Positions 91 to 59,078 of a DNA stretch of 64,000 bases are shown here, one piece after another. The position numbers were made by a program, and so were the translations under genes. The notes beneath the pieces were generated by a model that did not search any database, had not been told where the DNA came from, and saw only the letters and a program-made list of their open reading frames with translations. This DNA comes from Aquipuribacter nitratireducens (GTDB lineage: Bacteria; Actinomycetota; Actinomycetes; Actinomycetales; JBBAYJ01), in NCBI RefSeq assembly GCF_037860835.1, contig NZ_JBBEOG010000002.1, positions 434,001 to 498,000 on the forward strand, given 5' to 3'. Every line of letters begins with the position of its first letter. The first letter of the stretch is position 1.

Positions 91-942
91 ATGCCCGACG
101 TCGAGACGCTCGCGTGCGGCCCGCACGTCCAGTGGGAGACCGCCCCGCACGACCCGGCCCACGGTGACCCCCACGCAGGGGCCGGCGACGCCGACTGGGT
201 GATCGGCACCGTCCGCCTCGTGCGGCCGCCGATGAACCCCATCGGGGCGAGCATCCGCGACGGCGTCGCCGAGGCCGTCCGCCACGCGCGCGCCGACGCG
301 CGCGTCCGCGGGGTCGTCGTCACCGGCGGCGACGTCTTCGCCGCGGGCGCCGACATCAAGGAGATGGCGGGCATGGGCATGCGCGACGTTCTCCGGCTCG
401 CCGCCGACCTGCAGGGCGCGCTCGACGACGTCGCCGGGCTGCCGGTCCCCACCGTCGCCGCCGTCAGCGGGTTCGCGCTCGGCGGCGGCTTCGAGCTCGC
501 GCTCGCGTGCGACCACCGGGTGCTCGACGAGGGCGCCCGCGTCGGCCTCCCGGAGATCACCCTCGGCCTCGTCCCGGGCGCCGGCGGCACGCAGCGCCTC
601 GCCCGGCTCGTCGGCCCCGGGCGGGCGAAGGACCTCGTGTGGACCGGGCGCATGGTGAACGCGGCCGAGGCGCTCGAGCTGGGTCTCGCCGACGAGGTGG
701 CCCCCGCCGGGACGGCGGAGACCGCGGCCAGGGCCCGTCTCGCGCGGTACGCGACGGCCGCCCAGGTCGCCGTCGCCGCGGCGAAGCAGGCCGTCGACGC
801 GGGCCTCGACGGCTCGCTCGCGGAGGGGCTGCAGCTGGAGCGCGGCCTGTTCGCCGGCCTCTTCGGCACGCGGGACGCCCAGGCCGGCCTGCGCTCCTTC
901 GTCGAGCAGGGCCCCGGCAAGGCCGTCTTCGAGGGGAGCTGA
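91..942 (+). CDS. Enoyl-CoA hydratase/isomerase (crotonase) family protein
   Basis: This is a 283-residue crotonase-fold protein that probably hydrates 2-enoyl-CoA thioesters in fatty-acid or amino-acid breakdown in the cytoplasm. The oxyanion-hole segments are visible as FAAGADIKEM and FALGGGFELALACD. Two acidic residues, E135 and E155 (in LPEITLGLVPGAGGTQ), sit 20 residues apart, as the catalytic pair does in true hydratases. About 35 extra N-terminal residues precede the fold. The next gene starts one base after the stop, so the two are probably cotranscribed. The exact substrate cannot be told from sequence. Confidence 0.88.
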   Translation: MPDVETLACGPHVQWETAPHDPAHGDPHAGAGDADWVIGTVRLVRPPMNPIGASIRDGVAEAVRHARADARVRGVVVTGGDVFAAGADIKEMAGMGMRDVLRLAADLQGALDDVAGLPVPTVAAVSGFALGGGFELALACDHRVLDEGARVGLPEITLGLVPGAGGTQRLARLVGPGRAKDLVWTGRMVNAAEALELGLADEVAPAGTAETAARARLARYATAAQVAVAAAKQAVDAGLDGSLAEGLQLERGLFAGLFGTRDAQAGLRSFVEQGPGKAVFEGS

Positions 943-943
943 C

Positions 944-1945
944 GTGGGCGACGACACCCCGGGCGACACGCCGGAGGAGACCCCGCGTCCTGCGGCCACG
1001 GAGGCCGAGGTCGAGGCCGCGTGGCACGACACCGACCTCGCGCAGGTGCTCTACCACGACTGGGAGTCCGGCACCTACGACGACAAGTGGTCGATCTCCT
1101 TCGACGAGCGGTGCATCGACTTCGCCTCGGCCCGGTTCGCCACCACCCTCGGTCCCGCCGCGGCGGCAGCCCCGAAGCCGTTCGGCCGCGCGCTCGAGAT
1201 CGGGGCCGGGACCGGCTTCTTCTCCCTCAACCTGCGCCAGGCCGGCTGGCTGGAGGAGGTCGTCGTCACCGACGTCTCCGCCGGGATGGTCGACGTCGCC
1301 CTCGAGCACGCCCGCAGGCTCGGGTTCCCCGACGGCGAGGGCGGGGTGAGCGGCCAGGTCGCCGGCATCACCGAGCTGCCCTTCGACGACGCCTCCTTCG
1401 ACCTCGTCCTCGGTCACGCCGTCCTCCACCACGTCCCCGACGTCGAGGCGGGCCTGCGCGAGTGCCTGCGCGTGCTGCGTCCCGGCGGCCGGTTCCTCTT
1501 CGCCGGGGAGCCGACGGTCGTGGGCGACCGCTACGCCCGTGCCCTGGGGCGCGCGACGTGGGCCGTGACCACCCGCGTCACGCACCTGCCGCCGTTCCGC
1601 GAGCGCTGGGCGCGCAGCAAGGAGGAGCTCGACGAGTCCTCGCGCGCCGCCGCGCTCGAGGCGGTCGTCGACCTCCACACCTTCCACCCCGGCGACCTCG
1701 CCCGGACCGCCCTCCGTGCGGGTGCCGTCGACGTCACGACGGCGACGGAGGAGCTGCTCGCGGCGTTCCTCGGCTGGCCCGTGCGGACCTTCGAGGCCGC
1801 CGTCAACCCCGAGCGGCTCGGGTGGGGCTGGGCGATGTTCGCCTACCGGGGCTGGCAGCGGCTCGGGCGCGTCGACCGCGTGCTGTCGAAGGTCCTCCCG
1901 CAGGGCGTGTTCTACGACGTCGGGGTGACCGGCACGAGACCCTGA
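944..1945 (+). CDS. Class I SAM-dependent methyltransferase
   Basis: This 333-residue cytoplasmic protein has a Methyltransf_11-type core. SAM motif I is LEIGAGTGFF near residues 84-93, followed by an acidic motif and the post-motif segment VLRPGGRFLFAGEP. The GTG start lies one base after the crotonase stop with GAGGGGAG upstream, which indicates translational coupling. About 100 C-terminal residues after the core have no motif I recognise and may bind the acceptor. The substrate is unknown. It may be a small molecule processed together with the upstream acyl-CoA enzyme, but that is inference from position. Confidence 0.85.
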   Translation: MGDDTPGDTPEETPRPAATEAEVEAAWHDTDLAQVLYHDWESGTYDDKWSISFDERCIDFASARFATTLGPAAAAAPKPFGRALEIGAGTGFFSLNLRQAGWLEEVVVTDVSAGMVDVALEHARRLGFPDGEGGVSGQVAGITELPFDDASFDLVLGHAVLHHVPDVEAGLRECLRVLRPGGRFLFAGEPTVVGDRYARALGRATWAVTTRVTHLPPFRERWARSKEELDESSRAAALEAVVDLHTFHPGDLARTALRAGAVDVTTATEELLAAFLGWPVRTFEAAVNPERLGWGWAMFAYRGWQRLGRVDRVLSKVLPQGVFYDVGVTGTRP

Positions 1946-1973
1946 CCCGGGCCCGACGGCCCCGGACATGACA

Positions 1974-1997
1974 GGTCTCTCACCCACATGAGAGACC
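1974..1997 (+). terminator. Perfect 8-bp hairpin after the methyltransferase gene
   Basis: GGTCTCTC (1974-1981) and GAGAGACC (1990-1997) are exact inverted copies around an 8-base loop. It lies 29 bases past the stop codon and is followed by Cs, not Ts. It could be a T-less terminator, as is common in high-GC actinobacteria, or an operator for the next cluster. Confidence 0.5.
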
Positions 1998-2043
1998 CCC
2001 CATGCGGCGCTCACGTTCCTGCCACACCCGCGCGACACCGTCC

Positions 2044-2065
2044 GTTCACCAGCGGTTCACCAGAC
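2044..2065 (+). promoter_or_regulatory. Tandem 11-bp direct repeat resembling a PhoP (PHO) box
   Basis: GTTCACCAGCG and GTTCACCAGAC follow each other with an exact 11-base period, one helical turn. In Streptomyces, PhoP binds direct 11-base repeats whose core is GTTCACC. The preceding 11 bases (cgacaccgtcc) could be a degenerate third unit. It lies 42 bases upstream of the GTG of the first glycosyltransferase gene, in a 161-base gap. I do not see a clean -10 hexamer downstream. Confidence 0.45.
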
Positions 2066-2106
2066 GGCGCAGCACGCGCCGGCGCCGCGGGGCAGACGGA
2101 GGACGT

Positions 2107-3444
2107 GTGGACAGCATCGCGACCGCAGCGCCGGCCACCCCGGGTCGGCTCGCCCGCACCGACCGTCGACGCCGCACCCGGGGGGCCGCACCCGCGCGGC
2201 TGAGGCGGGTCGCCCTCTACTCCCACGACACCCAGGGCCTCGGGCACGTCCGACGCAACATCGCCGTCGCCGCCGCGCTCGTCGGCGCCGACCCGGCGAC
2301 GAACGTCCTCCTCCTCACCGGCGCCCCGGAGGCGACCTCCCTCCCGCTGCCGCCGCGGACGGAGGTCGTCACCCTCCCGGCGCTCGCCAAGTCCACCGAC
2401 GGCTCGTACGCCAGCCGCGTGCTCGACGCCCCCCTCGCCGACGTCCTCCGCATCCGAGCCGGCGTCGTCACCGCCGCGCTCCTCGCCTTCGCGCCCGACC
2501 TCCTCGTCGTCGACAAGGTGGCGCGCGGGGTCCACGGCGAGCTCGACGAGGCCCTCCGCGTGCTTCGCGAGACGCTGCCGACACGCGTGGTGCTCGGGCT
2601 GCGGGAGGTCCTCGACCACCCCGTCGCCGCCCGCCGCGAGTGGGAGCGCGACCGCACGGACGACGTGCTCCGTGACTCCTACGACGCCGTGTGGGTGTAC
2701 GGCGACCCGCGGGTCTACGACCCCGTCGCCGAGTACGGGCTGTCGCCGGACGTCGCCGCCATGACGGTCCACACCGGCTACCTCGGCCGCGGGCGTCAGG
2801 ACGGCACCCGCACGCGCACCCGCGCGGGCCGGGTGCGCCGACCCGACGGGCCGTACGCCCTGTGCCTCGTCGGCGGCGGCCAGGACGGCGTCGACCTCGC
2901 CCGCGCGTTCCTCGCCGCACCCCTGCCGACGGGCGTGCAGGGGATCGCGGTCACCGGCCCGTACATGGCCGCCGAGCAGCGCCGCGAGCTGCGCGGCCTC
3001 GCCGCCGCCCGCGACGACGTGCGGGTCCTCGACTTCGTGCCGGACGCCGCCGACCTCGTCGCCGGCGCCGCCGCCGTCGTGTCGATGGCGGGCTACAACA
3101 GCGTGTGCGAGCTCCTCGCCGCGCGCCGTCCCACCCTGCTCGTGCCACGGGTACGACCCCGGCGCGAGCAGCTCGTGCGCGCCCGCCGGCTCGCCGCGCG
3201 CGGTCTCGTCGACATGCTCCACCCCGACGTCTGCCACGCGGGCGCGGTCGGTGACTGGCTCGCCCGCGTCCTGCCGCCGGCGGCCGACGCGGACCGACCG
3301 GCTCCCGAGCAGCCCGCGGACGTCGACCTCGACGGCCTGGCGCGCCTGCCGGGCCTCGCCCGCTCCCTCGTGGCCGCGGCCCCTCGGCGACCCGCCGCGG
3401 CCGCGGCGACGAGAGACCTGGAGGTGGACCGTGTCGCCGTCTGA
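2107..3444 (+). CDS. MurG-like (GT-B, family 28-type) glycosyltransferase
   Basis: This protein of about 445 residues probably transfers a sugar from a nucleotide sugar. The N-terminal motif YSHDTQGLGHVRRN matches the glycine-rich GxGH loop of MurG-type GT-B enzymes. The C-terminal half carries SMAGYNSVCELLAARRPTLL, the donor-binding region. I chose the GTG at 2107 because GGAGG (2098-2102) precedes it. An upstream ATG at 2002 would add 35 Arg-rich residues and would start within the 8-bp hairpin's flank, upstream of the repeat box. It is the first gene of an overlapping cluster, and the next start lies inside its last codons. The acceptor is unknown. Confidence 0.8.
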   Translation: MDSIATAAPATPGRLARTDRRRRTRGAAPARLRRVALYSHDTQGLGHVRRNIAVAAALVGADPATNVLLLTGAPEATSLPLPPRTEVVTLPALAKSTDGSYASRVLDAPLADVLRIRAGVVTAALLAFAPDLLVVDKVARGVHGELDEALRVLRETLPTRVVLGLREVLDHPVAARREWERDRTDDVLRDSYDAVWVYGDPRVYDPVAEYGLSPDVAAMTVHTGYLGRGRQDGTRTRTRAGRVRRPDGPYALCLVGGGQDGVDLARAFLAAPLPTGVQGIAVTGPYMAAEQRRELRGLAAARDDVRVLDFVPDAADLVAGAAAVVSMAGYNSVCELLAARRPTLLVPRVRPRREQLVRARRLAARGLVDMLHPDVCHAGAVGDWLARVLPPAADADRPAPEQPADVDLDGLARLPGLARSLVAAAPRRPAAAAATRDLEVDRVAV

Positions 3445-4678
3445 CACCCCGCGCATCGGCTACGTCCTCAAGATGTACCCGCGCTTCTCGGAGACGTTCG
3501 TGCTCACCGAGGTGCTGTCGCTGGAGGAGGCGGGGGCCTCGCTCGAGATCTTCTCGCTGCGGCCCCCGGTCGACGCCCGCTTCCACGCCGACCTCGCCCG
3601 CGTGCAGGCGCCCGTCACGTGGGTCGACTCCTCCTCGGTCCGCGCGAGCGAGGCGTGGCAGCGCCTGCGCGAGGCGGCCACGCGCCTGCCCCGCCTCCCG
3701 GGCCTCCTGCCGGAGCTGCTCGAGGCCGACGCGCGGGACGCGCTGCAGGCCGTCGCCGTCGCCGACGCGGCCGTCGCCCGTGGCCTCGACCACCTCCACG
3801 CCCACTTCGGTAGCGTCGCGACGACCGTCGCCCGGCTCGCGGCGCGCCTCGCCGGGATCACGTACTCCTTCACCGCGCACGCGAAAGACGTCTTCCACGA
3901 GTCCGTCGACGACGACGACCTGCGGCAGAAGCTCCGCGACGCCGCGGCGGTCGTCACCGTCAGCGCGTACAACGTCGCCCACCTCCGGGAGCGGTTCGGC
4001 GCCGACGCGGGTCGCGTCCGGCAGGTCAACAACGGCATCGACCTCGACGCGTTCGCGTGGCGCTCGCCGCGGCAGCGGCCGCGTCACGTCGTCGCGGTCG
4101 GTCGACTCGTCGAGAAGAAGGGCTTCGGGGACCTCGTCGAGGCGCTGCACCTCCTCCGCGCGTCCGGCGACCCGGTGACGTGCGACGTCGTGGGGTCGGG
4201 GCCGCTGCTCACGGAGCTCGCGGCCCGCGTCGCCGCGCTCGGGCTCACCGACCGGGTCCGGCTGCTGGGGCCCCGGACGCAGGACGAGGTCCGAGCAGCC
4301 GTCTCCGCCGCCGCGGTCATGGCGGCGCCGTGCGTGGTCGGCGACGACGGCAACCGCGACGGGCTGCCCACCGTCGTCCTCGAGGCGATGGCGCTGGGGA
4401 CGCCGGTCGTGTCGACGCCGGTCACGGGGATCCCCGAGGTCGTGCGCGACGGTGACACGGGCCTCCTCGTCCCGGAGCGTGACCCCGCCGCCCTCGCACG
4501 CGCGCTGCGTCGCCTCCTCGACGACGCCGACCTGCGCGAGCGCACCGCGCGCGCGGCGCGCTCGCTCGTCGAGTCCGGCTACGACCGGCGGGACCAGGCC
4601 CGGCGGCTCCGCGCGATGCACGCGGAGGTGCTCGCGGGCGGCCACCGGTCGCGTGCGGTCGAGGCGGTGCCGGCATGA
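3431..4678 (+). CDS. Family 4 glycosyltransferase (WcaL/colanic-acid type)
   Basis: This cytoplasmic GT-B glycosyltransferase has about 415 residues. It opens with IGYVLKMYPRFSETFVLTEV, a signature of the colanic-acid/amylovoran-type GT4 branch. The donor site includes VGRLVEKKGF and the E-x7-E stretch GLPTVVLEAMALGTPVVS. The GTG start at 3431 has GGAGG at 3420-3424 and overlaps the previous gene by 14 bases. Longer in-frame starts would run through the previous gene and are unlikely. It probably adds a sugar to the same glycan or glycolipid as its neighbours. Confidence 0.85.
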   Translation: MSPSDTPRIGYVLKMYPRFSETFVLTEVLSLEEAGASLEIFSLRPPVDARFHADLARVQAPVTWVDSSSVRASEAWQRLREAATRLPRLPGLLPELLEADARDALQAVAVADAAVARGLDHLHAHFGSVATTVARLAARLAGITYSFTAHAKDVFHESVDDDDLRQKLRDAAAVVTVSAYNVAHLRERFGADAGRVRQVNNGIDLDAFAWRSPRQRPRHVVAVGRLVEKKGFGDLVEALHLLRASGDPVTCDVVGSGPLLTELAARVAALGLTDRVRLLGPRTQDEVRAAVSAAAVMAAPCVVGDDGNRDGLPTVVLEAMALGTPVVSTPVTGIPEVVRDGDTGLLVPERDPAALARALRRLLDDADLRERTARAARSLVESGYDRRDQARRLRAMHAEVLAGGHRSRAVEAVPA

Positions 4679-5901
4679 GGGCCGTCGTCGTGTGCTCGGA
4701 CCCGGGCATCCCCGTGTTCGGCACCAAGGGCGCCTCCGTCCACCTCCAGGCCGTCCTCACCGAGCTCGTGCGGCGCGGGGACGACGTCCACGTCGTCTCG
4801 CCCCGTCCCGGGGGGCCCGCTCCCGACTGCCTCCGCGCCGTCACGGTCCACCGCCTGCCGGCCGTCAGCGGCACCCTCGGGGCGGCGCGGGAGGCCGCCG
4901 CCCGCGCGAGCGACACCGCCGTCGCCGGCGTCCTCGACCGCCTCCACCGGCAGCGTGCGGGCGTCGACCTCGTCCTCGAGCGCTACAGCCTGTGGGGCGG
5001 CACCGGCGTCGCGTGGGCGGCACGGCACGGGGTCCGCTCCGTCCTCGAGGTCAACGCCCCCCTCGTGCGCGAGCAGGCCGACCACCGGGAGCTCCACGAC
5101 GTGGCGGGCGCGACGGCCGCCGCCCGGCGCTCCCTCGGCAGCGCCGGCGCCGTGGTGTGCGTGAGCGACGGTGTCGCCCGCTGGGCGCGCGAGGAGCTGC
5201 GCACCTGCGACGGGGACCCCGCGCGCGTGCACGTCGTCGCGAACGGCGTCGACACCGCTCGCGTCACCCCGGCCCGCCGACCCGGCGGGGTGCGGCCCCT
5301 CACCGTCGGGTTCGTCGGCAGCCTCAAGCCGTGGCACGGCACCGAGCACCTCGTGGACGCCGTCGCGCTCCTGCGCCGGCGCGACCCGCGGTGGCGGCTC
5401 CTCGTCGTGGGGGACGGGCCGCAGCGCCAGGCGCTCGTCGACCGTGCCGGCGCGCGTGGCGTCGCCGACGCCCTCGAGCTCACCGGCGCGCTCAGCCCGG
5501 TCGCGGTCGCCGCACAGCTGCACCGCATGGACGTCGGGTGCGCCCCCTACGAGACCGCCGCCGACTTCTACTTCTCGCCCCTCAAGGTCTACGAGTACCT
5601 CGCCGCCGGCCTGCCCGTCGTCGCGGCCGACGTGCCCGGGATGGCGGGGCTCCTCCGCGCGGGCGCGGCCGGCGACCGGTCGCTCGGGCGCCTCCACCGG
5701 CCGGGGGACGCCGCCGACCTCGCCGACGCCCTCGCAGCACTGGCCGCCGACCCGCTCGCCCGTCGCCTCGCCGGCGCCCGCGGCCGGCGAGCGGCCGTCA
5801 CCCGGCACACGTGGCGGGCCGTCGTCGCCCGCGTGCTCGCCCTCGCCGACCACGCGCCGCAGCCGCTGCCGGCCCGTGTCGCCGTCGGGGCGGTGGTGTG
5901 A
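4675..5901 (+). CDS. Family 4 glycosyltransferase
   Basis: This GT4 glycosyltransferase of 408 residues has a two-Rossmann GT-B layout. The N-terminal motif is DPGIPVFGTKGASVHL, with GTKG as the glycine loop. The C-terminal donor region contains VGFVGSLKPWHGTEHL and the segment SPLKVYEYLAAGLPVVAADV with the expected Glu. Its ATG overlaps the preceding TGA by four bases, and the ABC exporter gene starts directly after its stop. This arrangement suggests synthesis and export of one product. Substrate and linkage are unknown. Confidence 0.85.
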   Translation: MRAVVVCSDPGIPVFGTKGASVHLQAVLTELVRRGDDVHVVSPRPGGPAPDCLRAVTVHRLPAVSGTLGAAREAAARASDTAVAGVLDRLHRQRAGVDLVLERYSLWGGTGVAWAARHGVRSVLEVNAPLVREQADHRELHDVAGATAAARRSLGSAGAVVCVSDGVARWAREELRTCDGDPARVHVVANGVDTARVTPARRPGGVRPLTVGFVGSLKPWHGTEHLVDAVALLRRRDPRWRLLVVGDGPQRQALVDRAGARGVADALELTGALSPVAVAAQLHRMDVGCAPYETAADFYFSPLKVYEYLAAGLPVVAADVPGMAGLLRAGAAGDRSLGRLHRPGDAADLADALAALAADPLARRLAGARGRRAAVTRHTWRAVVARVLALADHAPQPLPARVAVGAVV

Positions 5902-7761
5902 GTGGCGCGACGACCGACCGGCCTGCGGGACTCCGCCCCCGCCCTGCGCCGGACCCTCCGCGCCCTGCGCCCCCAGGTCCGCCGCGAGCGGAAGCTGCTC
6001 CTCGCCGGCAGCGCCGCGCTGCTCCTCGAGGTCGCGATGCGGCTGCTCGAACCGTGGCCGCTGAAGTACGTCGTCGACGCCGTCGCCGTGGCCACCGGTG
6101 CGCAGCTCGGGGTCGCGCAGCCGGCCGGGATCGGGACCGTCATCCTCGTCGCGGCGCTCGCGCTCGTCGCGTTCACGGCGCTGCGTGCCCTCGCGAGCTA
6201 CCTCATGACGGTGTGCTTCGCCCTCGCGGGCAACCGGGTCCTCACACGCGTGCGCGCCGACATGTACGCCCACCTCAACCGGCTGTCCCTCGCCTTTCAC
6301 GACCGGGCGCGCACCGGCGACCTCGTCACGCGGGTGACGGGCGACGTGGGCCGCCTGCAGGAGGTCGCCGTCACGGCGGCGCTCCCGCTCGTCGGCAACG
6401 TCGTCACGCTCGTCGGGATGCTCGTCGTGGTCGTGGTCCTCGACTGGCAGCTCGCGCTCGTCGTCCTCCTCGTGTTCCCCGTCTTCGCCCTCACGAGCGT
6501 CCGGCTCACCCGCCGCATCAGCGGGGTCGCCCGGAAGCAGCGCGTCGCGGAGGGGGCCATCGCGTCGGTGGCGACCGAGTCCCTCGGCGCCATGAAGGTC
6601 GTGCAGGCGTACTCCCTCGAGGGTCCGCTCCAGCGGGCCTTCGGCGGCAGCAACGAGAAGAGCCTCAAGGACGGCGTCAAGGCGAAGAAGCTCGCCGCCG
6701 GGCTCGAGCGCAAGACCGACGTGCTCGTCGGGCTCGCGACCGGTCTCGTCCTGTACGTCGGCGCCACGCGCGTCGTCGCCGGCGCGCTGACGCCGGGGGA
6801 GCTCGTCGTCTTCCTCACGTACCTCAAGACGGCGTTCAAGCCGATGCGCGACGTCGCGAAGTACACCGGCCGGATCGCCCGGGCGGCCGCCTCGGGCGAG
6901 CGGGTCGTCGACCTCCTCCAGACCCGGCCGGACCTCGAGGACCGGTCGTGGGCGAGAGCCGCACCGCGCCTGCGCGGCCACGTCGAGCTCCGTGACGTCA
7001 CCGTCGCCTACGAGCCGGGTCACCCCGTGCTGCGCGACGTGTCGTTCACCGTCCACCCGGGTCAGCGGGTGGGGGTCGTGGGCCCGAGCGGCTCGGGCAA
7101 GTCGAGCCTCGTGTCGCTGCTGTCCCGCCTGCGCGACCCCGACCGGGGCCAGGTCCTCCTCGACGGCCACGACGTCCGCGACCTCACGATCGCCTCGGTC
7201 CGGCCGCAGGTGGCGGTCGTCCTGCAGGAGAGCGTCCTGTTCGCCACCACCGTGCGGGAGAACATCGCCTTCGGTGCGCCCGGTGCCACGGACGAGCAGG
7301 TGGAGCGGGCCGCTCGGCTCGCCGGCGCCCACGACTTCGTCACCCGGCTGCCCGACGGCTACGACACCGTCGTGGGGGAGCGCGGCACCACGCTGTCGGG
7401 CGGGCAGCGGCAGCGCATCGCGATCGCGCGGGCCGCCGTGCGCGACGCCCCGGTCGTCGTCCTCGACGAGGCCCTCACCGGCCTCGACCAGGACACCGAG
7501 GACGAGGTCGTCGCCGCCCTCGCCCGGCTCACGGACGGACGCACGACCTTCGTCGTGACGCACGACGTCGAGTCGGTCCGCGACGCCGACGTCGTCCTCC
7601 GCGTCGAGGCGGGCCGGCTCGTCGCGGCCGGCCCACCGGAGCAGGTCCTCGGGCCCGCCCCGCGACGGCTGTCCGCCGTGCCGACCCCTCCCGCGGAGCC
7701 AGCGACGGAGCCGGTCGACGAGCCCCGCGAGGCACCGAGGGGGCGACGTGCGCGTGCCTGA
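5902..7761 (+). CDS. ABC exporter, fused permease and ATPase (MsbA/lipid-flippase type)
   Basis: This is a 619-residue half-transporter that would work as a homodimer in the cytoplasmic membrane. Residues about 25-310 hold six predicted membrane helices, including the intracellular-loop stretch FHDRARTGDLVTRVTGDVG. The ATPase domain has Walker A GPSGSGKSS near residue 394, the signature LSGGQRQR near 498, and Walker B VVVLDEAL near 518. The GTG start follows the preceding stop with no gap. With three glycosyltransferases before it, the likely cargo is a glycolipid or oligosaccharide. It is not a two-component polysaccharide ABC system, since the domains are fused. Confidence 0.88.
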   Translation: MARRPTGLRDSAPALRRTLRALRPQVRRERKLLLAGSAALLLEVAMRLLEPWPLKYVVDAVAVATGAQLGVAQPAGIGTVILVAALALVAFTALRALASYLMTVCFALAGNRVLTRVRADMYAHLNRLSLAFHDRARTGDLVTRVTGDVGRLQEVAVTAALPLVGNVVTLVGMLVVVVVLDWQLALVVLLVFPVFALTSVRLTRRISGVARKQRVAEGAIASVATESLGAMKVVQAYSLEGPLQRAFGGSNEKSLKDGVKAKKLAAGLERKTDVLVGLATGLVLYVGATRVVAGALTPGELVVFLTYLKTAFKPMRDVAKYTGRIARAAASGERVVDLLQTRPDLEDRSWARAAPRLRGHVELRDVTVAYEPGHPVLRDVSFTVHPGQRVGVVGPSGSGKSSLVSLLSRLRDPDRGQVLLDGHDVRDLTIASVRPQVAVVLQESVLFATTVRENIAFGAPGATDEQVERAARLAGAHDFVTRLPDGYDTVVGERGTTLSGGQRQRIAIARAAVRDAPVVVLDEALTGLDQDTEDEVVAALARLTDGRTTFVVTHDVESVRDADVVLRVEAGRLVAAGPPEQVLGPAPRRLSAVPTPPAEPATEPVDEPREAPRGRRARA

Positions 7762-9160
7762 CGCCACCCTCGACGGGGACCGGGTCGGCGGCGCGACCGG
7801 CCCCGCCGCCGACCGCGTCCCGTCGCCGAGCGGCGCCACCGCGAGGGAGGTCGAGAGGCTCCTCGCCGCCGAGCCGGACGTGCCCGGCCTGCGGCTGCTC
7901 CTCGACGCCGAGGCCCTGGCGGGCTGGGCCGCGGCGACCGGCGCCCACCCGCTCGCCGACGGCCGCTACGCGGTCCGCTACCTGCGCTGGAAGCCCGGGG
8001 CCGGCGGCGTCGCCCGCCTCGTGCCCGCCGAGCGCGCGCTCCCCGAGGTGTTCCTCGCCGTGTGGCACACGGGGGCCGCCGCGAAGCTCGCGAAGGGGGT
8101 CGGCCGGGCCGGCCGTCACGCCGTCCACGTCGACCCCGACCGCCTCGCGCTCGTCGCGAGAGCGGCCGGTGACCGTGACCTGCCCGGGTTGCGTCTCGTG
8201 GCCCCCGCGGCGGGGGACGAGGTACCGGCCCGTCCCGGCCGGGACGTGCGGCGTGCGCTGCGGGGGCGCACGAGCCTCCGCCCGCTCGCGTGGAAGCCGG
8301 GCCGGCGCTGGGTCGGGCGGGCGTCGTCGCCGGACGGCGCCCTCGACCCGGTCGTCGTCCGCGCGTACCGGCCCGCGGACCTCGGGCGCGCCGTCGAGGG
8401 CTGGCGCACCGTCGCGGGACCACCGGGCCCGCCAGGGGCCGCGGGGCGCGTCCGCGCCCCGCGGCCCCTGGCCGTGGACGCCCGCCGCGGGCTGCTCGTC
8501 ACCGAGCACCTCCCCGGCGTCCCGCTCGACCGGCTGCTGGCGGTGGGCGACGCCCGGGTTGAGGGGGCCCTCGCGGCCGCGGGGGCCGTCCTCGCCGACC
8601 TCCACCGCCTGGGCCCGCCGCGTCCGCCGGCACAGCCCGCGGACCCGCTCGCCGCCGAGATCGCGGCGGTGCGGGCGGCGGGGCGCATGCTCCGGCGGCT
8701 GCGGCCCGACGTGCTCGACGCGACGGCCGGCCGCACGTCCGGCGCGACGCTCGTCGACGACGTGGTCCGGGGCCTCCTGCGCGGCGGGAGCGGACCCCTC
8801 GGTCCGGTTCACGGGGACCTGTCCGCCGACCAGATCCTCGTCGACGCGCGGGGTCGCGTCAGCGTGCTCGACCTCGACGAGGCGGGCCGGGGTCCGCTCG
8901 TGGCCGACGTCGCCGACCTCGCGGCCTCGTGGCTCGTCGAGGCGCCGGCGGCCGCCGACGACCGCCTCGGGCGGCTCCTCGACGGGTACGCCGCCCGTGG
9001 CGGGTCGTGGCCGGACCCCGACGCGCTGCGGCCCTGGCTCGCCGCCCGTCTGCTGCGACGCGCCGTCGCGCCGTTCCGGACGGGGTCCCCGACGTGGGCG
9101 GAGCAGACGGACGAGCTGCTCCGCCGGGTGCGCGGCGTCCTCGACAGGGGACAGCGGTGA
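7748..9160 (+). CDS. APH-fold phosphotransferase-like protein 1
   Basis: This protein of 470 residues has an aminoglycoside-phosphotransferase/choline-kinase fold in its C-terminal half. The Brenner-type loop HGDLSADQILVD begins at H355, and the metal-binding segment SVLDLDEAGRGPLVADVADL follows. The usual Asn of HxDxxxxN is Gln here, as in the next gene. The first 150 residues contain a partly repeated lobe (YAVRYLRWKPG and LRPLAWKPG) that I cannot assign. The GTG start overlaps the exporter gene by 14 bases. It may phosphorylate a sugar or lipid head group, or may be a non-catalytic kinase fold. Resistance to antibiotics should not be inferred. Confidence 0.72.
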   Translation: MRVPDATLDGDRVGGATGPAADRVPSPSGATAREVERLLAAEPDVPGLRLLLDAEALAGWAAATGAHPLADGRYAVRYLRWKPGAGGVARLVPAERALPEVFLAVWHTGAAAKLAKGVGRAGRHAVHVDPDRLALVARAAGDRDLPGLRLVAPAAGDEVPARPGRDVRRALRGRTSLRPLAWKPGRRWVGRASSPDGALDPVVVRAYRPADLGRAVEGWRTVAGPPGPPGAAGRVRAPRPLAVDARRGLLVTEHLPGVPLDRLLAVGDARVEGALAAAGAVLADLHRLGPPRPPAQPADPLAAEIAAVRAAGRMLRRLRPDVLDATAGRTSGATLVDDVVRGLLRGGSGPLGPVHGDLSADQILVDARGRVSVLDLDEAGRGPLVADVADLAASWLVEAPAAADDRLGRLLDGYAARGGSWPDPDALRPWLAARLLRRAVAPFRTGSPTWAEQTDELLRRVRGVLDRGQR

Positions 9161-10350
9161 CGGCGACGACCCGCGGCCCCGCCCTGCTCGGGATCCGCGC
9201 GGACCTCCTCTCCCACGGTCTCGGCCTCCGCCGCGCGTGGCCGCGCTCGCCCGAGCACCTGCTGCTCCACGCCGCCGCGGGTCACGGTGAGCCGCCCGGC
9301 TGGACGGCGGGGCAGTGGTTCGCCGACGAGGGCAGAGCGGCCGACGTCGCGCGGCGCTGCGCCCGGGCACAGCACCTGCCCGGCACGGGCGTCGTGCTGC
9401 AGCCGGCCGGGGCGGACCACCGGCTCCCCGGTCTGCCGACCCTCCTGCAGTGGCCGGGTGCCCGCCTCGTCGCCCACCGTCCCGGCCGGCGGGCCGTCGT
9501 CCGCCTCGACCGCCCCGGCACGGACCCGCACTGGGCGAAGGTCGTGCGGCCCGGGCGCGCGGCCGGGCTCGCCCGCACCGCGTCGTGGCGGCCGGCGGGT
9601 GTCACGGTCCCCGAGGTGCTCGACGTCGACGAGGCGACCGGCATCGTCGTGACGGCCGACCTGCCGGGCACGACGCTGCGGGCCCTCGCGTCGGCGGACG
9701 ACCGCGTCGCGGCGTGGCGGGCCACCGGGGCCATGCTCGCCCGCGTGCACGCCGCCCCGGCACCGGAGGGTGCCCCCGTGCACGCGCTCGACGACGAGGT
9801 CGCCGTGAGCGTGCGGTGGCTGCGACTGGCCCGGTCGCTGGGTGCACTGCCGCCGTGGGCCGTCGCGCGGCTCGAGGGCGTCGTCGTCGAGCACGCCGCG
9901 GCCGCGGGCGCGCCGGCGGTCCCCGTCACCCTCCACCGCGACCTGCACGACGGGCAGGTGCTCGTCCGCGGCACGCGGGAGTGCGACATGGGCGTCGGCG
10001 TGCTCGACCTCGACCTGGTGGCCCGCGGGGACGCCGCCGTCGACCTCGGCAACGTCCTCGCCCACCTCGTCCTGCGTGCGCTGCAGGGGGACACCGCTGC
10101 GGCGGGGGAGACCGCGTGGGCCTTCCTCGAGGGGTACCGGGGGGCCGGCGGCGCGCTGCCGGCGGACAGGTCGTTGACCGCCCACGTGGGCCTCGCCGCC
10201 GCCCGGCTCGCCGCCGTCTACGGGTTCCGCCCGGCGGCGGCCGGCGGGCCGGGCGACGACCCGGACGCCGGCGGGGCGCGGGTCGTCGCCGGCCTCGTCG
10301 CGCTCGCTCTCGACCCGCGTCCCGCCGTCCTCGCGGCCGCGCGGGCCTGA
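9157..10350 (+). CDS. APH-fold phosphotransferase-like protein 2
   Basis: This second APH-fold protein has 397 residues and starts by a GTGA overlap with the first. The catalytic loop is HRDLHDGQVLV, starting at H260, and the metal motif is GVLDLDLVARGDAAVDLGN. Gln again replaces the loop Asn. The nucleotide lobe region includes HWAKVVRPGRAAGLART. Two adjacent divergent copies suggest a pair acting on related steps or forming a heterodimer. The gene ends in an 8-bp hairpin whose loop contains the stop codon, so the tightly overlapping cluster probably ends here. Confidence 0.72.
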   Translation: MTATTRGPALLGIRADLLSHGLGLRRAWPRSPEHLLLHAAAGHGEPPGWTAGQWFADEGRAADVARRCARAQHLPGTGVVLQPAGADHRLPGLPTLLQWPGARLVAHRPGRRAVVRLDRPGTDPHWAKVVRPGRAAGLARTASWRPAGVTVPEVLDVDEATGIVVTADLPGTTLRALASADDRVAAWRATGAMLARVHAAPAPEGAPVHALDDEVAVSVRWLRLARSLGALPPWAVARLEGVVVEHAAAAGAPAVPVTLHRDLHDGQVLVRGTRECDMGVGVLDLDLVARGDAAVDLGNVLAHLVLRALQGDTAAAGETAWAFLEGYRGAGGALPADRSLTAHVGLAAARLAAVYGFRPAAAGGPGDDPDAGGARVVAGLVALALDPRPAVLAAARA

Positions 10351-10358
10351 GCCCGCGC
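10339..10358 (+). terminator. 8-bp hairpin with the stop codon in its loop
   Basis: GCGCGGGC (10339-10346) pairs with GCCCGCGC (10351-10358). The four-base loop CTGA contains the TGA of the second kinase-like gene. It is GC-only with no T tract, so termination is plausible but not certain. Confidence 0.45.
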
Positions 10359-10369
10359 GCCGCCTCTGC

Positions 10370-10375
10370 TAGAAC
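10370..10375 (+). promoter_or_regulatory. -10-like hexamer before the acyltransferase gene
   Basis: TAGAAC lies 7 bases before the GTG at 10383, matching the leaderless spacing seen at many starts in this window. It follows the hairpin at 10339-10358, so the acyltransferase may have its own promoter. Confidence 0.4.
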
Positions 10376-10382
10376 CGGGAGG

Positions 10383-11195
10383 GTGGAAGGGCTCGCCGCC
10401 GTCGTCGCCGCGTGGCGGGTCCGGCTGCGCGAGGGCCGCCACCCCGAGCAGTACGCCCACCTGTCCCGCGAGTCGCTCGCGTGGGTGTGGCGCCACCGCG
10501 CGCTCACCCCGGGCTACCTCGTCCGCTACGCCCGCCTCCTCCGGCTGCGGCTGCTCCATCCCGACGTCGTGACGCACGGGATGGTCTTCCTCGGGCGCGG
10601 CGCGCGTGTCCGGACCGTGCCCGGCTACGGGCGGGTGCACCTCGGGGCGTTCGTCCACCTCGGTGAGCGGACGGTGCTGCGCGCCCACGAGGGGATGCTG
10701 CGGGTCGGGGACAAGGTCGTGGCCGGCGCCGACGTCCGGGTCACGTGCTGGCTCGACGTCGAGGTGGGCGACGGCACCCTCCTCGCGGACTGGACGTACG
10801 TCGCCGACTTCGACCACGTCCACAGCGACGTCGCCCGGCCGGTCAAGGACCAGGGCATCCGCAAGGCACCCGTGCGGATCGGTCCGGGCTCGTGGCTGGG
10901 GCTGCGCAGCGCCGTCCTGCGTGGCAGCGACCTCGGCCGCGGCACCGTGGTGGCCGCCCACGCCGTCGTCCGCGGCGCGTGGCCCGCCGACGTCGTCCTC
11001 GCCGGAGTGCCGGCGGTCCAGGTCGCCGACCGTGCCGAGCGGGCCGCGCGGGGCACGTGGCCCGGCGCCGACCTCCTCGCCCACGACCCCGCGCTCAGGC
11101 CCGCCGCGCCACCAGCACGAGGTCGAGGGCGTCGTCGAGCGCGGCTCCGGGGCCGCCCGGTGCCACCCGGAAGCCGGCCGCGGCGGCGCGGCTGA
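10383..11195 (+). CDS. Left-handed beta-helix (hexapeptide) acyltransferase
   Basis: This protein of about 270 residues resembles maltose/sugar O-acetyltransferases. Imperfect hexapeptide turns run through RVHLGAFVHLGERTVLRAHE and IGPGSWLGLRSAVLRGSDLGRGTVVAAHAVV, which would form the acetyl-CoA-binding helix. A histidine-rich segment (FDHVHSDVARPVKDQG) sits where the catalytic His is expected. It may acylate the product of the upstream glycosyltransferases. The frame only closes at 11195, so about 33 Arg/Pro-rich C-terminal residues overlap the convergent methyltransferase gene. That tail is probably not functional. The fold call is firm, the end is less so. Confidence 0.75.
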   Translation: MEGLAAVVAAWRVRLREGRHPEQYAHLSRESLAWVWRHRALTPGYLVRYARLLRLRLLHPDVVTHGMVFLGRGARVRTVPGYGRVHLGAFVHLGERTVLRAHEGMLRVGDKVVAGADVRVTCWLDVEVGDGTLLADWTYVADFDHVHSDVARPVKDQGIRKAPVRIGPGSWLGLRSAVLRGSDLGRGTVVAAHAVVRGAWPADVVLAGVPAVQVADRAERAARGTWPGADLLAHDPALRPAAPPARGRGRRRARLRGRPVPPGSRPRRRG

Positions 11196-11838
11196 CGGTG
11201 CGGGCGTCGGGCGGTGGCCCGTGGACGCCGAGCACCTGCACGGCCGTCAGGCGCCGGCCGGCCGCGAGCGCCCGGAGCTCCTCGGCGTCGTACTCGCGGT
11301 GGTGGTAGACGTTCGCGGGTCGGGCCTCCCGGGGCAGGCCGGGGGAGAACGTCAGCCGGTTCGGCGTCGTGCACACGAGCACCCCGCCGGGGCGGAGCAC
11401 ACGCGCCGCCTCGTCGAGGTGCTCCCACGGCGTCCAGACGTGCTCGATCACCTGGCTGCTCACGACCGCGTCGGCCACGCCGGAGGCGAGAGGGAGCGCG
11501 ACGACGTTCCCGCGGACGTCGGCGACCTCCGCCCCGCCGTAGCCGGCCGCGGCGTGCGTCGCGGCCGCCGCGTCGAGCTCGACGCCGACCACGCAGGGGC
11601 CGGGGACGTCGCGCCGCGCCCGCAGGAGGGTGCTCGCGTACCCCTCCCCGATGCCGGTGTCGACGACGAGCGCCCGGCGCCCCGCACGCCCCGGCGGCAG
11701 GAGCCGGGACGCCAGCCGGTACCCGGCGACGTGCCGGGCGAACCAGTACCGCTCCTCCCGCGACCAGGCCGCGTGGCCGTCGTCGGGGCCGGTCCGCTCG
11801 CCGGTGAGCGGGAGGGCCGGGCGGTGGGTGTCGGGCAC
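11095..11838 (-). CDS. SAM-dependent methyltransferase (class I, UbiE/BioC-like)
   Basis: This minus-strand protein of about 247 residues has motif I ALVVDTGIGEGYAS, where the usual EIGxGxG is DTGIGEG. The Methyltransf_11 hallmarks DAVVSSQVIEHVWTPWEHLDE and VLRPGGVLVCTTPNRLTF follow. The GTG at 11838 is preceded 7 bases away by CACACT (11851-11846), a plausible leaderless -10. Its 3' end overlaps the convergent acyltransferase by 101 bases. The target is unknown. Methylation of a glycan, lipid or quinone is possible, and its position next to the glycan cluster favours the first. Confidence 0.78.
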   Translation of the reverse strand: MPDTHRPALPLTGERTGPDDGHAAWSREERYWFARHVAGYRLASRLLPPGRAGRRALVVDTGIGEGYASTLLRARRDVPGPCVVGVELDAAAATHAAAGYGGAEVADVRGNVVALPLASGVADAVVSSQVIEHVWTPWEHLDEAARVLRPGGVLVCTTPNRLTFSPGLPREARPANVYHHREYDAEELRALAAGRRLTAVQVLGVHGPPPDARTVSRAAAAGFRVAPGGPGAALDDALDLVLVARRA

Positions 11839-11909
11839 GCGTGGCAGTGTGGGCCCCGCAGGCGCGACGGGGCGTCCGCCCCACCGGGCGGGTCCGTCGA
11901 GCCTAGGGC

Positions 11910-16098: not shown

Positions 16099-16124
16099 CC
16101 CACATGAGGCGGCTCTCATGTGGG
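16099..16124 (+). terminator. 10-bp perfect hairpin after mnmA
   Basis: CCCACATGAG (16099-16108) and CTCATGTGGG (16115-16124) are exact inverted copies with a 6-base loop. The hairpin begins three bases after the mnmA stop and lacks a T tract. It covers the first possible ATG (16120) of the next reading frame. Confidence 0.65.
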
Positions 16125-16155
16125 TCTCACGCGCGGGTCACCCGCCGTCGGGACC

Positions 16156-16653
16156 GTGGTGCACGTGGAGGGAGACCGGACGCGCACGCCCGCCCCAGCG
16201 GCGCCGGTCGAGCCCGTCGCACCCGCCGGCGGCACCCGTAACGCCGTGCTCGCTGCTGCGACCGGCGTCGTCGTCATCGCCGCGGTCGCCGCGGCGGCGC
16301 TCGCCGTCGTCCCGCGGGTGCCGGAGCTCGGCAGCGTCGTCGTGACGATCCCCGCCCCCGAGCCGTCAGCCGGCCCGTCGCCGAGCCCGTCGCCGAGCCC
16401 GTCGCCGAGCCCGTCGCCGAGCCCGTCACCGAGCCCGTCACCGAGCCCGTCACCGAGCCCGTCGCCCGACCCGGCACCTGCGCCCGCTCCGGAACCGGAG
16501 CCCGCGCCGGCGCCCGCCCCGCCCCCGCCTGCGCCGGAGCCCGCGCCGGCACCCCCGCCGGACGACGACGACTCGGACGACGACGGCGGCCCGGACGACG
16601 ACGACGGCCCGGACGATGACGACGATGAGGACGATGACGATGACGACGACTGA
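16156..16653 (+). CDS. Membrane-anchored Pro/Ser-stalk protein with Asp-rich tail
   Basis: I do not recognise a family. The product of about 165 residues has a short cytoplasmic N-terminus and one hydrophobic helix (NAVLAAATGVVVIAAVAAAA). A stalk of repeated Pro-Ser follows, then a Pro/Ala/Glu-rich stretch and an acidic tail made almost entirely of Asp with some Gly and Pro. The stalk is encoded by a 12-bp tandem repeat. Starts are possible at 16120, 16156, 16159 and 16165. I prefer 16156 because 16120 lies inside the mnmA hairpin. The sensor kinase gene starts 15 bases downstream, so it may present a cation-binding tail to that kinase. This role is inference. Confidence 0.6.
   Translation: MVHVEGDRTRTPAPAAPVEPVAPAGGTRNAVLAAATGVVVIAAVAAAALAVVPRVPELGSVVVTIPAPEPSAGPSPSPSPSPSPSPSPSPSPSPSPSPSPSPSPDPAPAPAPEPEPAPAPAPPPPAPEPAPAPPPDDDDSDDDGGPDDDDGPDDDDDEDDDDDDD
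16374..16457 (+). repeat. Seven tandem 12-bp units encoding Pro-Ser
   Basis: The unit CCCGTCGCCGAG is repeated four times (16374-16421), then CCCGTCACCGAG three times (16422-16457), with a partial eighth copy. The G-to-A change is shared by three neighbouring units, which suggests stepwise slippage. Copy number is likely to vary between strains. Confidence 0.9.
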
Positions 16654-16668
16654 GCGGGGCGGTCCCCG

Positions 16669-18234
16669 GTGACCCGGTCGGTGCGCGCCCAGGTCGTCGG
16701 CGCCGTCGTCCTGCTGCTCGTCGTCGGTCTCGCGGTGTCGGCGGTCCTCAGCTACGTCGTGCAGTACAACGACGTCGACGAGCGGGTCGCGCGGGAGCTC
16801 GAGCAGGAGGTCCAGGAGTTCGAGACGCTCGCCTCCGGACCGCTCAACCCCGTGACGGGCGAGCCGTGGCAGGGCGTCGACGAGGTGCTGACGACCCTCG
16901 TCACCACGCTCGCCCCCGAGGAGAACCAGGTGCTCCTCGGCTTCGTCGACGGCCGCCTCGTCACCGTGCAGGAGTCGACCGAGCGCATCGACTTCGAGGA
17001 CGAGACCGCCGCGCTCGCCGACATCGTCGCCTTCCCCGCCCCCGGCATCGGCAGCACGGACACCTCACAGGGCCGGCTCGCCTTCGCCGCCGTCCCCGTC
17101 GTGGACCCCGCCGACGGGCGCGACGCCCTGTTCGTCGCGACGTACCTCGTGTCCGACGAGTACGCCGAGGTGACGGGGACCATCCGGGACCGCGCCGTCG
17201 TCTACGGCGCCGTCGTGGTCGTCGTCGCAGCCGTGGGGTGGCTCCTGCTCGGCCGGCTGCTCGCGCCGCTCGCCGCCCTGCGGGACGCCGCGGCGAGCAT
17301 CGACGACCAGGATCTCTCCCGCCGCATCGACGTCGAGGGTCGTGACGAGGTCTCCGACCTCGGCCGCCGCTTCAACGCGATGCTCGACCGCCTCGAGAGC
17401 GCGTTCGCGAGCCAGCGCGACCTCCTCAACGACGTGGGGCACGAGCTGCGGACGCCCGTCACCATCGTCCGCGGGCACCTCGACCTGCTCGACGCCGACG
17501 ACCCGACCGACGTGCGTGCGACCCGGGAGCTCGTGCTCGACGAGCTCGACCGGATGTCGCGGCTCGTCGACGACCTCATCACCCTCGCGAAGTCGGAGCG
17601 GCCGGACTTCGTGCGCCCCGGGCCCGTCGACGTCACGGTCCTCACCGACGAGGTCCTCGAGAAGGTGAGCGCCGTCGCGCCGAGGTCGTGGCGCCTCGAC
17701 GGGCTCGCCGCGGGCACGGTCCTCCTCGACCGCGAGCGCGTCACGCAGGCGCTCGTCCAGCTCGCCGCGAACGCCGTCACGCACACCGCACCGCACGACG
17801 AGATCGCGATCGGGTCCGCCCGCGTCGCAGGTGACGACACAGGTGCCGGGGACCGGGTGCTGCTGTGGGTGCGCGACACCGGGCCCGGCGTCGACCCCGA
17901 CGACGAGGAGCACATCTTCCGGCGGTTCGGTCGGGGCACGGGCGAGGACCGGGGGAGCGGCACCGGTCTCGGCCTCGCGATCGTCCAGGCCATCGCCGTC
18001 GCGCACGGCGGCGGGGTCGTGCTGGAGAACGCACCCGGGGAGGGCGCGACGTTCGTCCTCGACCTGCCGTGGGTGCCGGCGGGTCAGCCCGACGAGGACC
18101 TCGAGGTGCCTCACCGCCCGGTCGACGGCCCGTACCCGCCCGAGGGGCCGCCGGACGACGGGGCCTACGACCTGTCCCTGTACCGACCACCCCACGGGGC
18201 CGACGGCCCCCGACCGGACGGAGCCCACCGGTGA
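16669..18234 (+). CDS. Two-component sensor histidine kinase with HAMP domain
   Basis: This 521-residue membrane kinase has a helix at about residues 9-31 and an extracellular sensor domain of about 140 residues. A second helix lies near 176-198 (AVVVVVAAVGWLLLG), followed by a HAMP linker. The phospho-accepting histidine is H258 in NDVGHELRTPVTIV. The ATPase domain shows the N-box QLAANAVTHT, DTGPGVDPDD and GTGLGLAIVQ. The C-terminal 50 residues are Pro/Gly-rich. The response regulator starts by a four-base overlap, so they form one system. The signal is unknown, but the upstream Asp-rich membrane protein hints at a cation or envelope cue. Confidence 0.9.
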   Translation: MTRSVRAQVVGAVVLLLVVGLAVSAVLSYVVQYNDVDERVARELEQEVQEFETLASGPLNPVTGEPWQGVDEVLTTLVTTLAPEENQVLLGFVDGRLVTVQESTERIDFEDETAALADIVAFPAPGIGSTDTSQGRLAFAAVPVVDPADGRDALFVATYLVSDEYAEVTGTIRDRAVVYGAVVVVVAAVGWLLLGRLLAPLAALRDAAASIDDQDLSRRIDVEGRDEVSDLGRRFNAMLDRLESAFASQRDLLNDVGHELRTPVTIVRGHLDLLDADDPTDVRATRELVLDELDRMSRLVDDLITLAKSERPDFVRPGPVDVTVLTDEVLEKVSAVAPRSWRLDGLAAGTVLLDRERVTQALVQLAANAVTHTAPHDEIAIGSARVAGDDTGAGDRVLLWVRDTGPGVDPDDEEHIFRRFGRGTGEDRGSGTGLGLAIVQAIAVAHGGGVVLENAPGEGATFVLDLPWVPAGQPDEDLEVPHRPVDGPYPPEGPPDDGAYDLSLYRPPHGADGPRPDGAHR

Positions 18235-18899
18235 ACCGCATCCTCATCGCGGAGGACGAGCCGCGCATCGTCAGCTTCCTCGAGAAGGGGCTGCGGGCCA
18301 ACGGCTTCACGACGACGTCCGCGCCCGACGGCGTGACGGCGCTCGACCTCGCCCGCAGCGACGAGGTCGACCTCGTCATCCTCGACGTGGGGCTCCCCCT
18401 CATGGACGGCTTCTCGGTCCTCAGGGCGCTGCGCGCCCAGGGGCACACCGTCCCGGTCGTCGTCCTCACGGCGCGGGACGCCGTCGACGACACGGTGACG
18501 GGGCTGTCGCTGGGCGCCGACGACTACGTGCGGAAGCCGTTCGCCTTCGAGGAGCTGCTCGCGCGCGTGCGGTTGCGGCTGCGCGCGGCGTCCGCGTCGT
18601 CCGCGGAGGAGACCGTGCTCCGCGTCGGTGGTCTCAGCCTCGACCTGCGGACGCGGCGCGCCGACGTCGAGGGCCGCACCGTCGACCTGTCGGCGCGGGA
18701 GTTCGGGCTCGCCGAGGTCTTCATGCGCCACCCGGACCAGGTGCTCAGCCGCGAGCAGCTGCTCTCCCGGGTCTGGGGCTACGACTTCGACCCGGGGTCG
18801 AACGTCGTCGACGTCTACGTCCGCTACCTGCGCGGGAAGGTCGGCAGGGAGCGGATCGAGACGGTCCGCGGGATGGGCTACCGCCTCGTGTCCCCCTGA
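18231..18899 (+). CDS. OmpR/PhoB-family response regulator
   Basis: This 222-residue regulator is the partner of the kinase it overlaps (GTGA). The receiver domain has the acidic pair in IAEDEPRI, the phosphorylation site D52 in VILDVGLPLMDG, and a conserved Lys in YVRKPFAFEELL. The C-terminal winged helix (REFGLAEVFMRHPDQVLSREQLL and VYVRYLRGKVG) is of the Trans_reg_C type. It is probably a DNA-binding transcription factor. Its targets are not visible, though the upstream membrane protein gene is an obvious candidate. Bases 18900-19050 hold no gene or clear hairpin. Confidence 0.92.
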   Translation: MNRILIAEDEPRIVSFLEKGLRANGFTTTSAPDGVTALDLARSDEVDLVILDVGLPLMDGFSVLRALRAQGHTVPVVVLTARDAVDDTVTGLSLGADDYVRKPFAFEELLARVRLRLRAASASSAEETVLRVGGLSLDLRTRRADVEGRTVDLSAREFGLAEVFMRHPDQVLSREQLLSRVWGYDFDPGSNVVDVYVRYLRGKVGRERIETVRGMGYRLVSP

Positions 18900-58623: not shown

Positions 58624-59078
58624 GCGGTGAGTGTCTCCCGACGCCCGAGGAACAGCAGCACGGCGGCGGCGACCACGACGTGCATGAGGCACAGGAGCAG
58701 GCGGGCCGCCGTCGAGGCGTCGACCGCGACGAGGAACGGCTGGGCGAAGGACAGGACGAGGAGCACGAGCACCCCGACGGTGAACACCGCCTCGGGCCAC
58801 CGGGTGAACCGCAGGTGGACCCAGCGCCCGACGGTGGCGGCGACCACGCCGACCACGCTCGCGACGGCGACGGCCCCGACGACGAGGGGAGCGGACGACC
58901 CGTCGGCGGCCGCCGGGTCCGGGACGAGCACCTCGAGGCCCGCGGCGCCTGCGACCAGGAAGAGGACGACGTTGACGACGACCGCGGCGAGGGCGGCGAG
59001 CAGACCGCGGACCCACAGGCGGCGGGTCGGCCGGGTCGTCCCGGCGGCGGCAGGGGTGGTGGGGGTGGGGGTGGCCAT
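58620..59078 (-). CDS. Four-helix membrane protein (DUF6069-like)
   Basis: This 152-residue protein has four hydrophobic segments: LLAALAAVVVNVVLFLVAGA, VVGAVAVASVVGVVAATVG, AVFTVGVLVLLVLSFAQP and LLLCLMHVVVAAAVLLFLG. A conserved segment WVHLRFTRWPEAVF lies between the second and third. This pattern matches the actinobacterial DUF6069 family, whose function is unknown. The ATG at 59078 has GAGGAGG 4 bases upstream. It heads an operon with the MarR gene, so it is probably controlled by it, and an envelope-protection role is possible. Confidence 0.78.
   Translation of the reverse strand: MATPTPTTPAAAGTTRPTRRLWVRGLLAALAAVVVNVVLFLVAGAAGLEVLVPDPAAADGSSAPLVVGAVAVASVVGVVAATVGRWVHLRFTRWPEAVFTVGVLVLLVLSFAQPFLVAVDASTAARLLLCLMHVVVAAAVLLFLGRRETLTA

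Follow-up and report, generated by a model that had tools for sequence, protein, structure and literature searches.

The question raised by this locus is how a perfect tandem repeat, lying 5' of the first gene of a glycan export cluster in Aquipuribacter nitratireducens, contributes to the control of that cluster. A sequence-only reading had taken the repeat for a possible PHO box through which PhoP would activate the cluster during phosphate starvation, and had suggested that the product may be a phosphate-free polymer. In the present study, the window (the whole stretch of 64,000 nucleotides analysed), the organism's own 3.83-Mb genome (3,827,235 bases in 26 contigs) and the genomes of relatives were searched. 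The features in the window are as follows.

1974 to 1997, no strand: inverted repeat GGTCTCTC-N8-GAGAGACC, overlapping the inverted array unit; read from the sequence
1988 to 2025, plus strand: array operator, with ATGAG at 1988-1992 (inverted), CCCAT at 1999-2003, CTCAC at 2010-2014 and GCCAC at 2021-2025
2036 to 2041, plus strand: predicted -10, CACCGT (nAnnnT), with a start site predicted near 2048
2044 to 2061, plus strand: PHO-box-like tandem GTTCACC-AGCG-GTTCACC, the site of the sequence-only reading; pattern, weight matrix and exact tandem count
2107 to 3444, plus strand: first glycosyltransferase (Glyco_tran_28_C); domain scan, with 570 relatives confirmed in genome contigs
3431 to 5901, plus strand: two GT4-type glycosyltransferases; domain scan, gene order conserved
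5902 to 7761, plus strand: ABC exporter (ABC_membrane and ABC_tran); domain scan
7748 to 10350, plus strand: two APH-type phosphotransferases; domain scan
10365 to 11195, plus strand: hexapeptide acetyltransferase-like protein; domain scan
16104 to 16141, plus strand: second array copy, ATGAGGCGGCTCTCATGTGGGTCTCAC, then GTCAC at 16137-16141, with a -10 GACCGT at 16152-16157
16120 to 16653, plus strand: Pro/Asp-rich membrane-anchored protein, true start probably 3' of 16150
16669 to 18234, plus strand: sensor histidine kinase (HAMP, HisKA, HATPase_c); domain searches
18231 to 18899, plus strand: OmpR-family response regulator, the proposed array binder; domain and homology searches

First, the repeat itself was borne out. 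The sequence GTTCACCAGCGGTTCACCAG occupies 2044-2063 in the intergenic region 5' of the first glycosyltransferase, and GTTCACCAG occurs in it twice, at 2044-2052 and 2055-2063, with a period of 11 bases; the glycosyltransferase has its in-frame GTG at 2107, preceded by GGAGG at 2098-2102. A longer in-frame reading frame from the ATG at 2002 would make the box coding, and this ATG lies upstream of the predicted transcription start. No other exact GTTCACC-N4-GTTCACC occurs in the window besides the copy at 2044-2061. A second tandem, with one mismatch, is found at 58803-58820 on the minus strand within an open reading frame, and the earlier statement that the window holds no second intergenic tandem is consequently correct. 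The proposed scoring with a PhoP weight matrix was run on the window, using a matrix built from 14 other PHO boxes with the 2044 site left out; the 2044 site ranked first (26.3), ahead of 58799 on the minus strand (23.7) and a third site (9.4). An extension of the box to four units (CCACACC at 2022 and CGACACC at 2033, in phase by eye) was rejected, the windows concerned scoring only -9.6 and 6.2. Within the window, tandems with at most three mismatches exceed shuffled sequence only modestly (9 against a mean of 3.8, with 3 of 100 shuffles reaching 9), and single GTTCACC motifs number 15 against 4.1 expected, a count that 0 of 100 shuffles reached. Genome-wide, the tandem occurs at 34 places with at most two mismatches, compared with 3 for the reversed pattern. 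Motifs, positions, genome-wide rarity and conservation can all be read directly from the DNA.

Second, the tandem at 2044-2061 is likely a PHO box, at which PhoP binding is predicted. In PMC4415409 and PMC7244524, such boxes are defined by 11-base direct repeats with the core GTTCACC; at least two direct units are required, and two are present here. The genome encodes a regulator of the PhoP/RegX3 type (L053), which matches mycobacterial RegX3 (2oqr) with an E value of 9e-99 and an identical recognition helix, TKTLDVHVKRLR; its gene lies on contig C8, about 24 kb from the box of a pstS-like gene, with a kinase match immediately 5' of it (C8:125279-125980). The motif is also found at the genome's own phosphate-starvation genes. 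Exact tandems number three genome-wide, namely the 2044 site and those upstream of the pstS-like gene (L003; PBP_like_2, with TIGR00975 at 203.2 bits against a cut-off of 205) and of a glycerophosphodiester phosphodiesterase (GDPD) gene (L002). Tandems with at most two mismatches precede genes for a PhoX phosphatase (L013), another GDPD (L023) and a 5'-nucleotidase (L008), and four of the five one-mismatch tandems (L004-L007) are inside or at the edge of open reading frames. In relatives, where controls gave 0 or 1 match per genome, tandems lie before genes read by eye as pstS (G001, G002, G047 and G048), polyphosphate kinase (G048), and GDPD and a sodium/phosphate transporter (G047), with some matches falling elsewhere. 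The site resembles the Streptomyces-type PHO box (bound by PhoP, or by RegX3 in mycobacteria) in its two 11-base GTTCACC units, the regulator ortholog and the motif at phosphate genes; unlike that type, it lies 3' of the predicted -10 of another regulator and not upstream of its own -10. At L002 (approximately 1501-1560), the exact tandem is located between the GDPD gene and a FecCD-type permease gene, beside sequence that resembles an iron-regulator box.

Third, a conserved promoter is observed upstream of the box. Regions upstream of the glycosyltransferase orthologs carry an array with the consensus ATGAR-N6-YTCAY-N6-YTCAY-N6-YTCAY, consisting of one inverted and three direct units 11 bases apart, and the window copy is degenerate in units 2 (CCCAT) and 4 (GCCAC). 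Alignment of 36 array promoters (30 fetched loci and both arrays of the window, plus L084, L140, L132 and L074 added by eye, with L128 excluded for its irregular array) revealed the -10 without selection, with A in 26/36 and T in 33/36 at offsets 49 and 53; the set is not independent, as it includes three Occultella loci and other relatives that resemble one another closely. PmrA/PhoB-type class II operators are known among OmpR-family regulators, and the array shows the features of this class, 11-base units followed by a -10 at a fixed distance. The array resembles these operators and those of CopR/CzcR, CseB and PrrA-type regulators in its 11-base direct repeats ending just 5' of the -10, and differs in the inverted first unit and the unit YTCAY. 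The inverted repeat at 1974-1997 is followed by no T run. With at most one mismatch, the three-unit pattern occurs at two places in the own genome (reversed control 0), this promoter and 16104-16130, the latter 14 kb away in the same window before the histidine kinase/response regulator operon.

In 21 genomes selected for, or related to, the cluster, 34 exact arrays were found (reversed control 0); among the 30 fetched, 14 stand immediately 5' of the glycosyltransferase and 5 upstream of a histidine-kinase operon; the other 11 precede further genes, including those for Asp-rich exported proteins, APH-type kinases and a DUF4956-VTC operon. In a linkage sample of 59 relatives not selected for the cluster, the array was present in 10 of 13 with the glycosyltransferase versus 7 of 46 without it (Fisher p 5.8e-5). 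The kinase/regulator pair, or the kinase, adjoins the glycosyltransferase in some genomes (L081/L182, L187, L188 and L189). Twelve non-actinobacterial genomes yielded 10 exact arrays in 7 genomes, with 3 reversed controls; five of the 10 lie within about 250 bases 5' of a GT28-type gene, all in genomes listed as cyanobacterial. Orthologous glycosyltransferases in many Actinobacteria, and related ones in several Cyanobacteria, have the array upstream, and the cyanobacterial arrays suggest that the regulatory link may have been kept or transferred across phyla. Cyanobacterial arrays directly 5' of GT28-type genes are found at L248, L249, L252, L253 and L256. The same-genus genomes G001 and G002 were rejected as a footprint, since neither has the glycosyltransferase or the array; the best kinase matches in them reach 34-41% identity and mostly cover only part of the sequence.

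The local response regulator is proposed, on the basis of linkage, as the protein that binds the array, and the local two-component system is probably the main control of the cluster. Six regulators encoded at array- or cluster-linked loci share 56-72% identity with that of the window and have the common helix GSNVVDV, unlike that of PhoP; among the matches listed, no NCBIfam model exceeded its cut-off for the local regulator. A second regulator of the genome (L056), 59% identical to the local one, might be another binder of the array.

The relation of the box to this promoter determines how a PhoP site might act. The box begins 3 bases 3' of the -10, and 2044-2061 spans the predicted start near 2048. 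When 396 genomes of the order were searched for an array with a TCACC tandem 15 to 45 bases 3' of it, the pair was found in two, the own genome and G048, both with a 74-base span (controls 0); the other 11 of the 12 genomes from the family of G048 lack the pair. Between the two promoters, 26/38 array positions are identical, as are 1/10 of the spacer, 4/6 of the -10, 15/18 of the box and 16/45 of its 3' flank, against a background of about 0.32. Because the glycosyltransferases themselves are about 50% identical, this island appears to be either constrained or shared by transfer, and part of the identity could stem from inheritance of a transferred cluster common to both. Across 36 glycosyltransferase upstream regions (L032 excluded, as L087, of equal length at 519769, is apparently the same contig), a tandem with at most one mismatch was present in three (own, L035 of G048, and L069), while reversed controls gave 0/36 at up to two mismatches; retention of the box in all orthologs is thus ruled out. 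Near-tandems with two mismatches in Occultella, considered as separate boxes, proved to be array units.

We propose herein that two OmpR-family regulators converge on one promoter. The local response regulator (18231-18899) would bind the array at 1988-2025, just 5' of the -10 at 2036-2041, and switch on the glycan export cluster, and would also switch on its own operon through the array at 16104. Upon phosphate starvation, phosphorylated PhoP would occupy the GTTCACC tandem at 2044-2061, over the predicted start, and block the promoter, such that the cluster would be expressed upon firing of the local sensor in the presence of sufficient phosphate. We infer which protein occupies which site, that the -10 functions in a promoter, and whether each regulator activates or represses; to the combined account, activation by the local system with a PhoP block in phosphate limitation, we would give an even chance. 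In PMC7244524, Pho boxes located 3' of the -10 or start site are described as a "road block" that represses transcription, with higher expression in a phoP mutant. The window box resembles those of sco4209 and dmdR1 in Streptomyces lividans/coelicolor described there in its position 3' of the -10 or start site; it differs in being superposed on the array promoter of a second OmpR-family regulator and in being known here from sequence alone.

Activation of the cluster by PhoP in starvation, yielding a phosphate-free polymer, is unlikely. The box scores like the activator boxes of pstS and other phosphate genes, but the conserved promoter sits upstream of it, and no -10 was found 20 or 31 bases 3' of the 2044 box. 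There is no T between 2062 and 2104, which leaves the interval from box to gene without a usual -10. In contrast, 8 of 14 control PHO boxes have an nAnnnT 20 or 31 bases downstream, and TANNNT stands exactly 31 bases 3' of every one of the six pstS-type boxes. The missing -10 is a strong but not absolute argument against activation, as a clear -10 at these distances is missing from 6 of the 14 control boxes as well, and its absence alone does not exclude activation. The PHO-box claim of the sequence-only reading is well supported by the own-genome phosphate genes, the RegX3/PhoP-type regulator, the motif in relatives and a footprint common with one other genus; control of the glycan cluster by a starvation activator is unsupported, with the box 3' of the -10 of a conserved array promoter and no nAnnnT before the gene. 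Since the box lies on the predicted start of a promoter apparently driven by the neighbouring sensor, low phosphate would more likely lower than raise cluster expression, and repression by PhoP, which we consider somewhat better than even, appears more likely than activation.

The composition of the cluster bears on the same issue. The cluster contains three glycosyltransferases, an exporter and two APH-type kinases, and the order GT28-GT4-GT4-exporter, often with APH-type kinases, is seen in most of 80 fetched loci, including Cyanobacteria, Planctomycetes and Proteobacteria. A nucleotide-sugar dehydrogenase in the cluster is a criterion for a teichuronic-type polymer; none was named among the ten proteins scanned (91 to 11850), which speaks against a phosphate-free polymer and leaves that earlier claim without support. 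The replacement of teichoic by teichuronic acid is known from Bacillus subtilis, to whose genes the window cluster is unrelated. PMC4415409 describes this replacement under Pho control as established, which favours activation; the teichoic and teichuronic acid genes are controlled in opposite ways there, and the repressed branch would be the closer analogy to a phosphate-controlled surface polymer in the window. The two APH-type kinases hint, no more, at a phosphate-costly product, and the position of the box fits such a product being shut off in starvation.

It is also improbable that the tandem is bound by another OmpR-family regulator, either the local one extending its array or an MtrA-/AfsQ1-type protein. 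Array and tandem are both 11-base repeats with a TCAC/TCAT core, array units read TTCACG/TTCACC in some relatives, and 14 Trans_reg_C matches above the cut-off were found in the own genome. However, GTTCACC tandems mark phosphate genes in the own genome and in relatives, the box is 2 bases out of the array register, most array promoters have no box, and the recognition helices of the PhoP and array types differ. A chance match or functionless relic is very improbable despite the rarity of the tandem in orthologous promoters (3/36), chance being rejected on the genome-wide control (34 versus 3) and the G048 footprint with its identical span and conserved island, the window shuffles being less telling.

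Returning to the convergence of the local system and PhoP, we suggest tentatively, at somewhat less than even confidence, that the four-unit operator with an inverted first unit may define an unrecognised two-component regulon over a conserved glycosyltransferase-exporter cluster in Actinobacteria and Cyanobacteria, to which a few lineages would have added PhoP as a block at the start site. The promoter of a phosphate-costly surface glycan would then be "activated AND NOT phosphate-starved". At the level of listings, nothing recognisable on the cluster, the array or the two-component system was found in the literature. If true, a surface glycan cluster of very distant bacteria would have a portable regulator and operator recognisable from sequence alone, the phosphate link would point to a phosphate-costly and not a phosphate-saving product, and the promoter would exemplify a nutrient regulator grafted onto the promoter of another system.

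Several minor observations concern the genes around the array. The four-unit operator (window 16104-18899; L148-L179) accompanies the glycosyltransferase cluster, Asp-rich exported proteins, APH-type kinases and the DUF4956-VTC operon; at L192:4079-5592 it lies 5' of genes for a DUF4956 protein and a VTC-domain (polyphosphate polymerase-like) protein. The own genome encodes a second histidine kinase (L261, G000 C4:393994-395376), 46% identical to that of the window, with no array within 1.5 kb and, among the matches listed, no nearby Trans_reg_C match. The first gene of the kinase operon (16120-16653) codes for a signal-anchored protein that has an Asp run at its end and matches nothing in Pfam or NCBIfam. 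Similar Asp-rich proteins are located 3' of the array in other genera (L158, L164, L170, L179 and L187), and the Asp-run protein might bind cations or cationic peptides.
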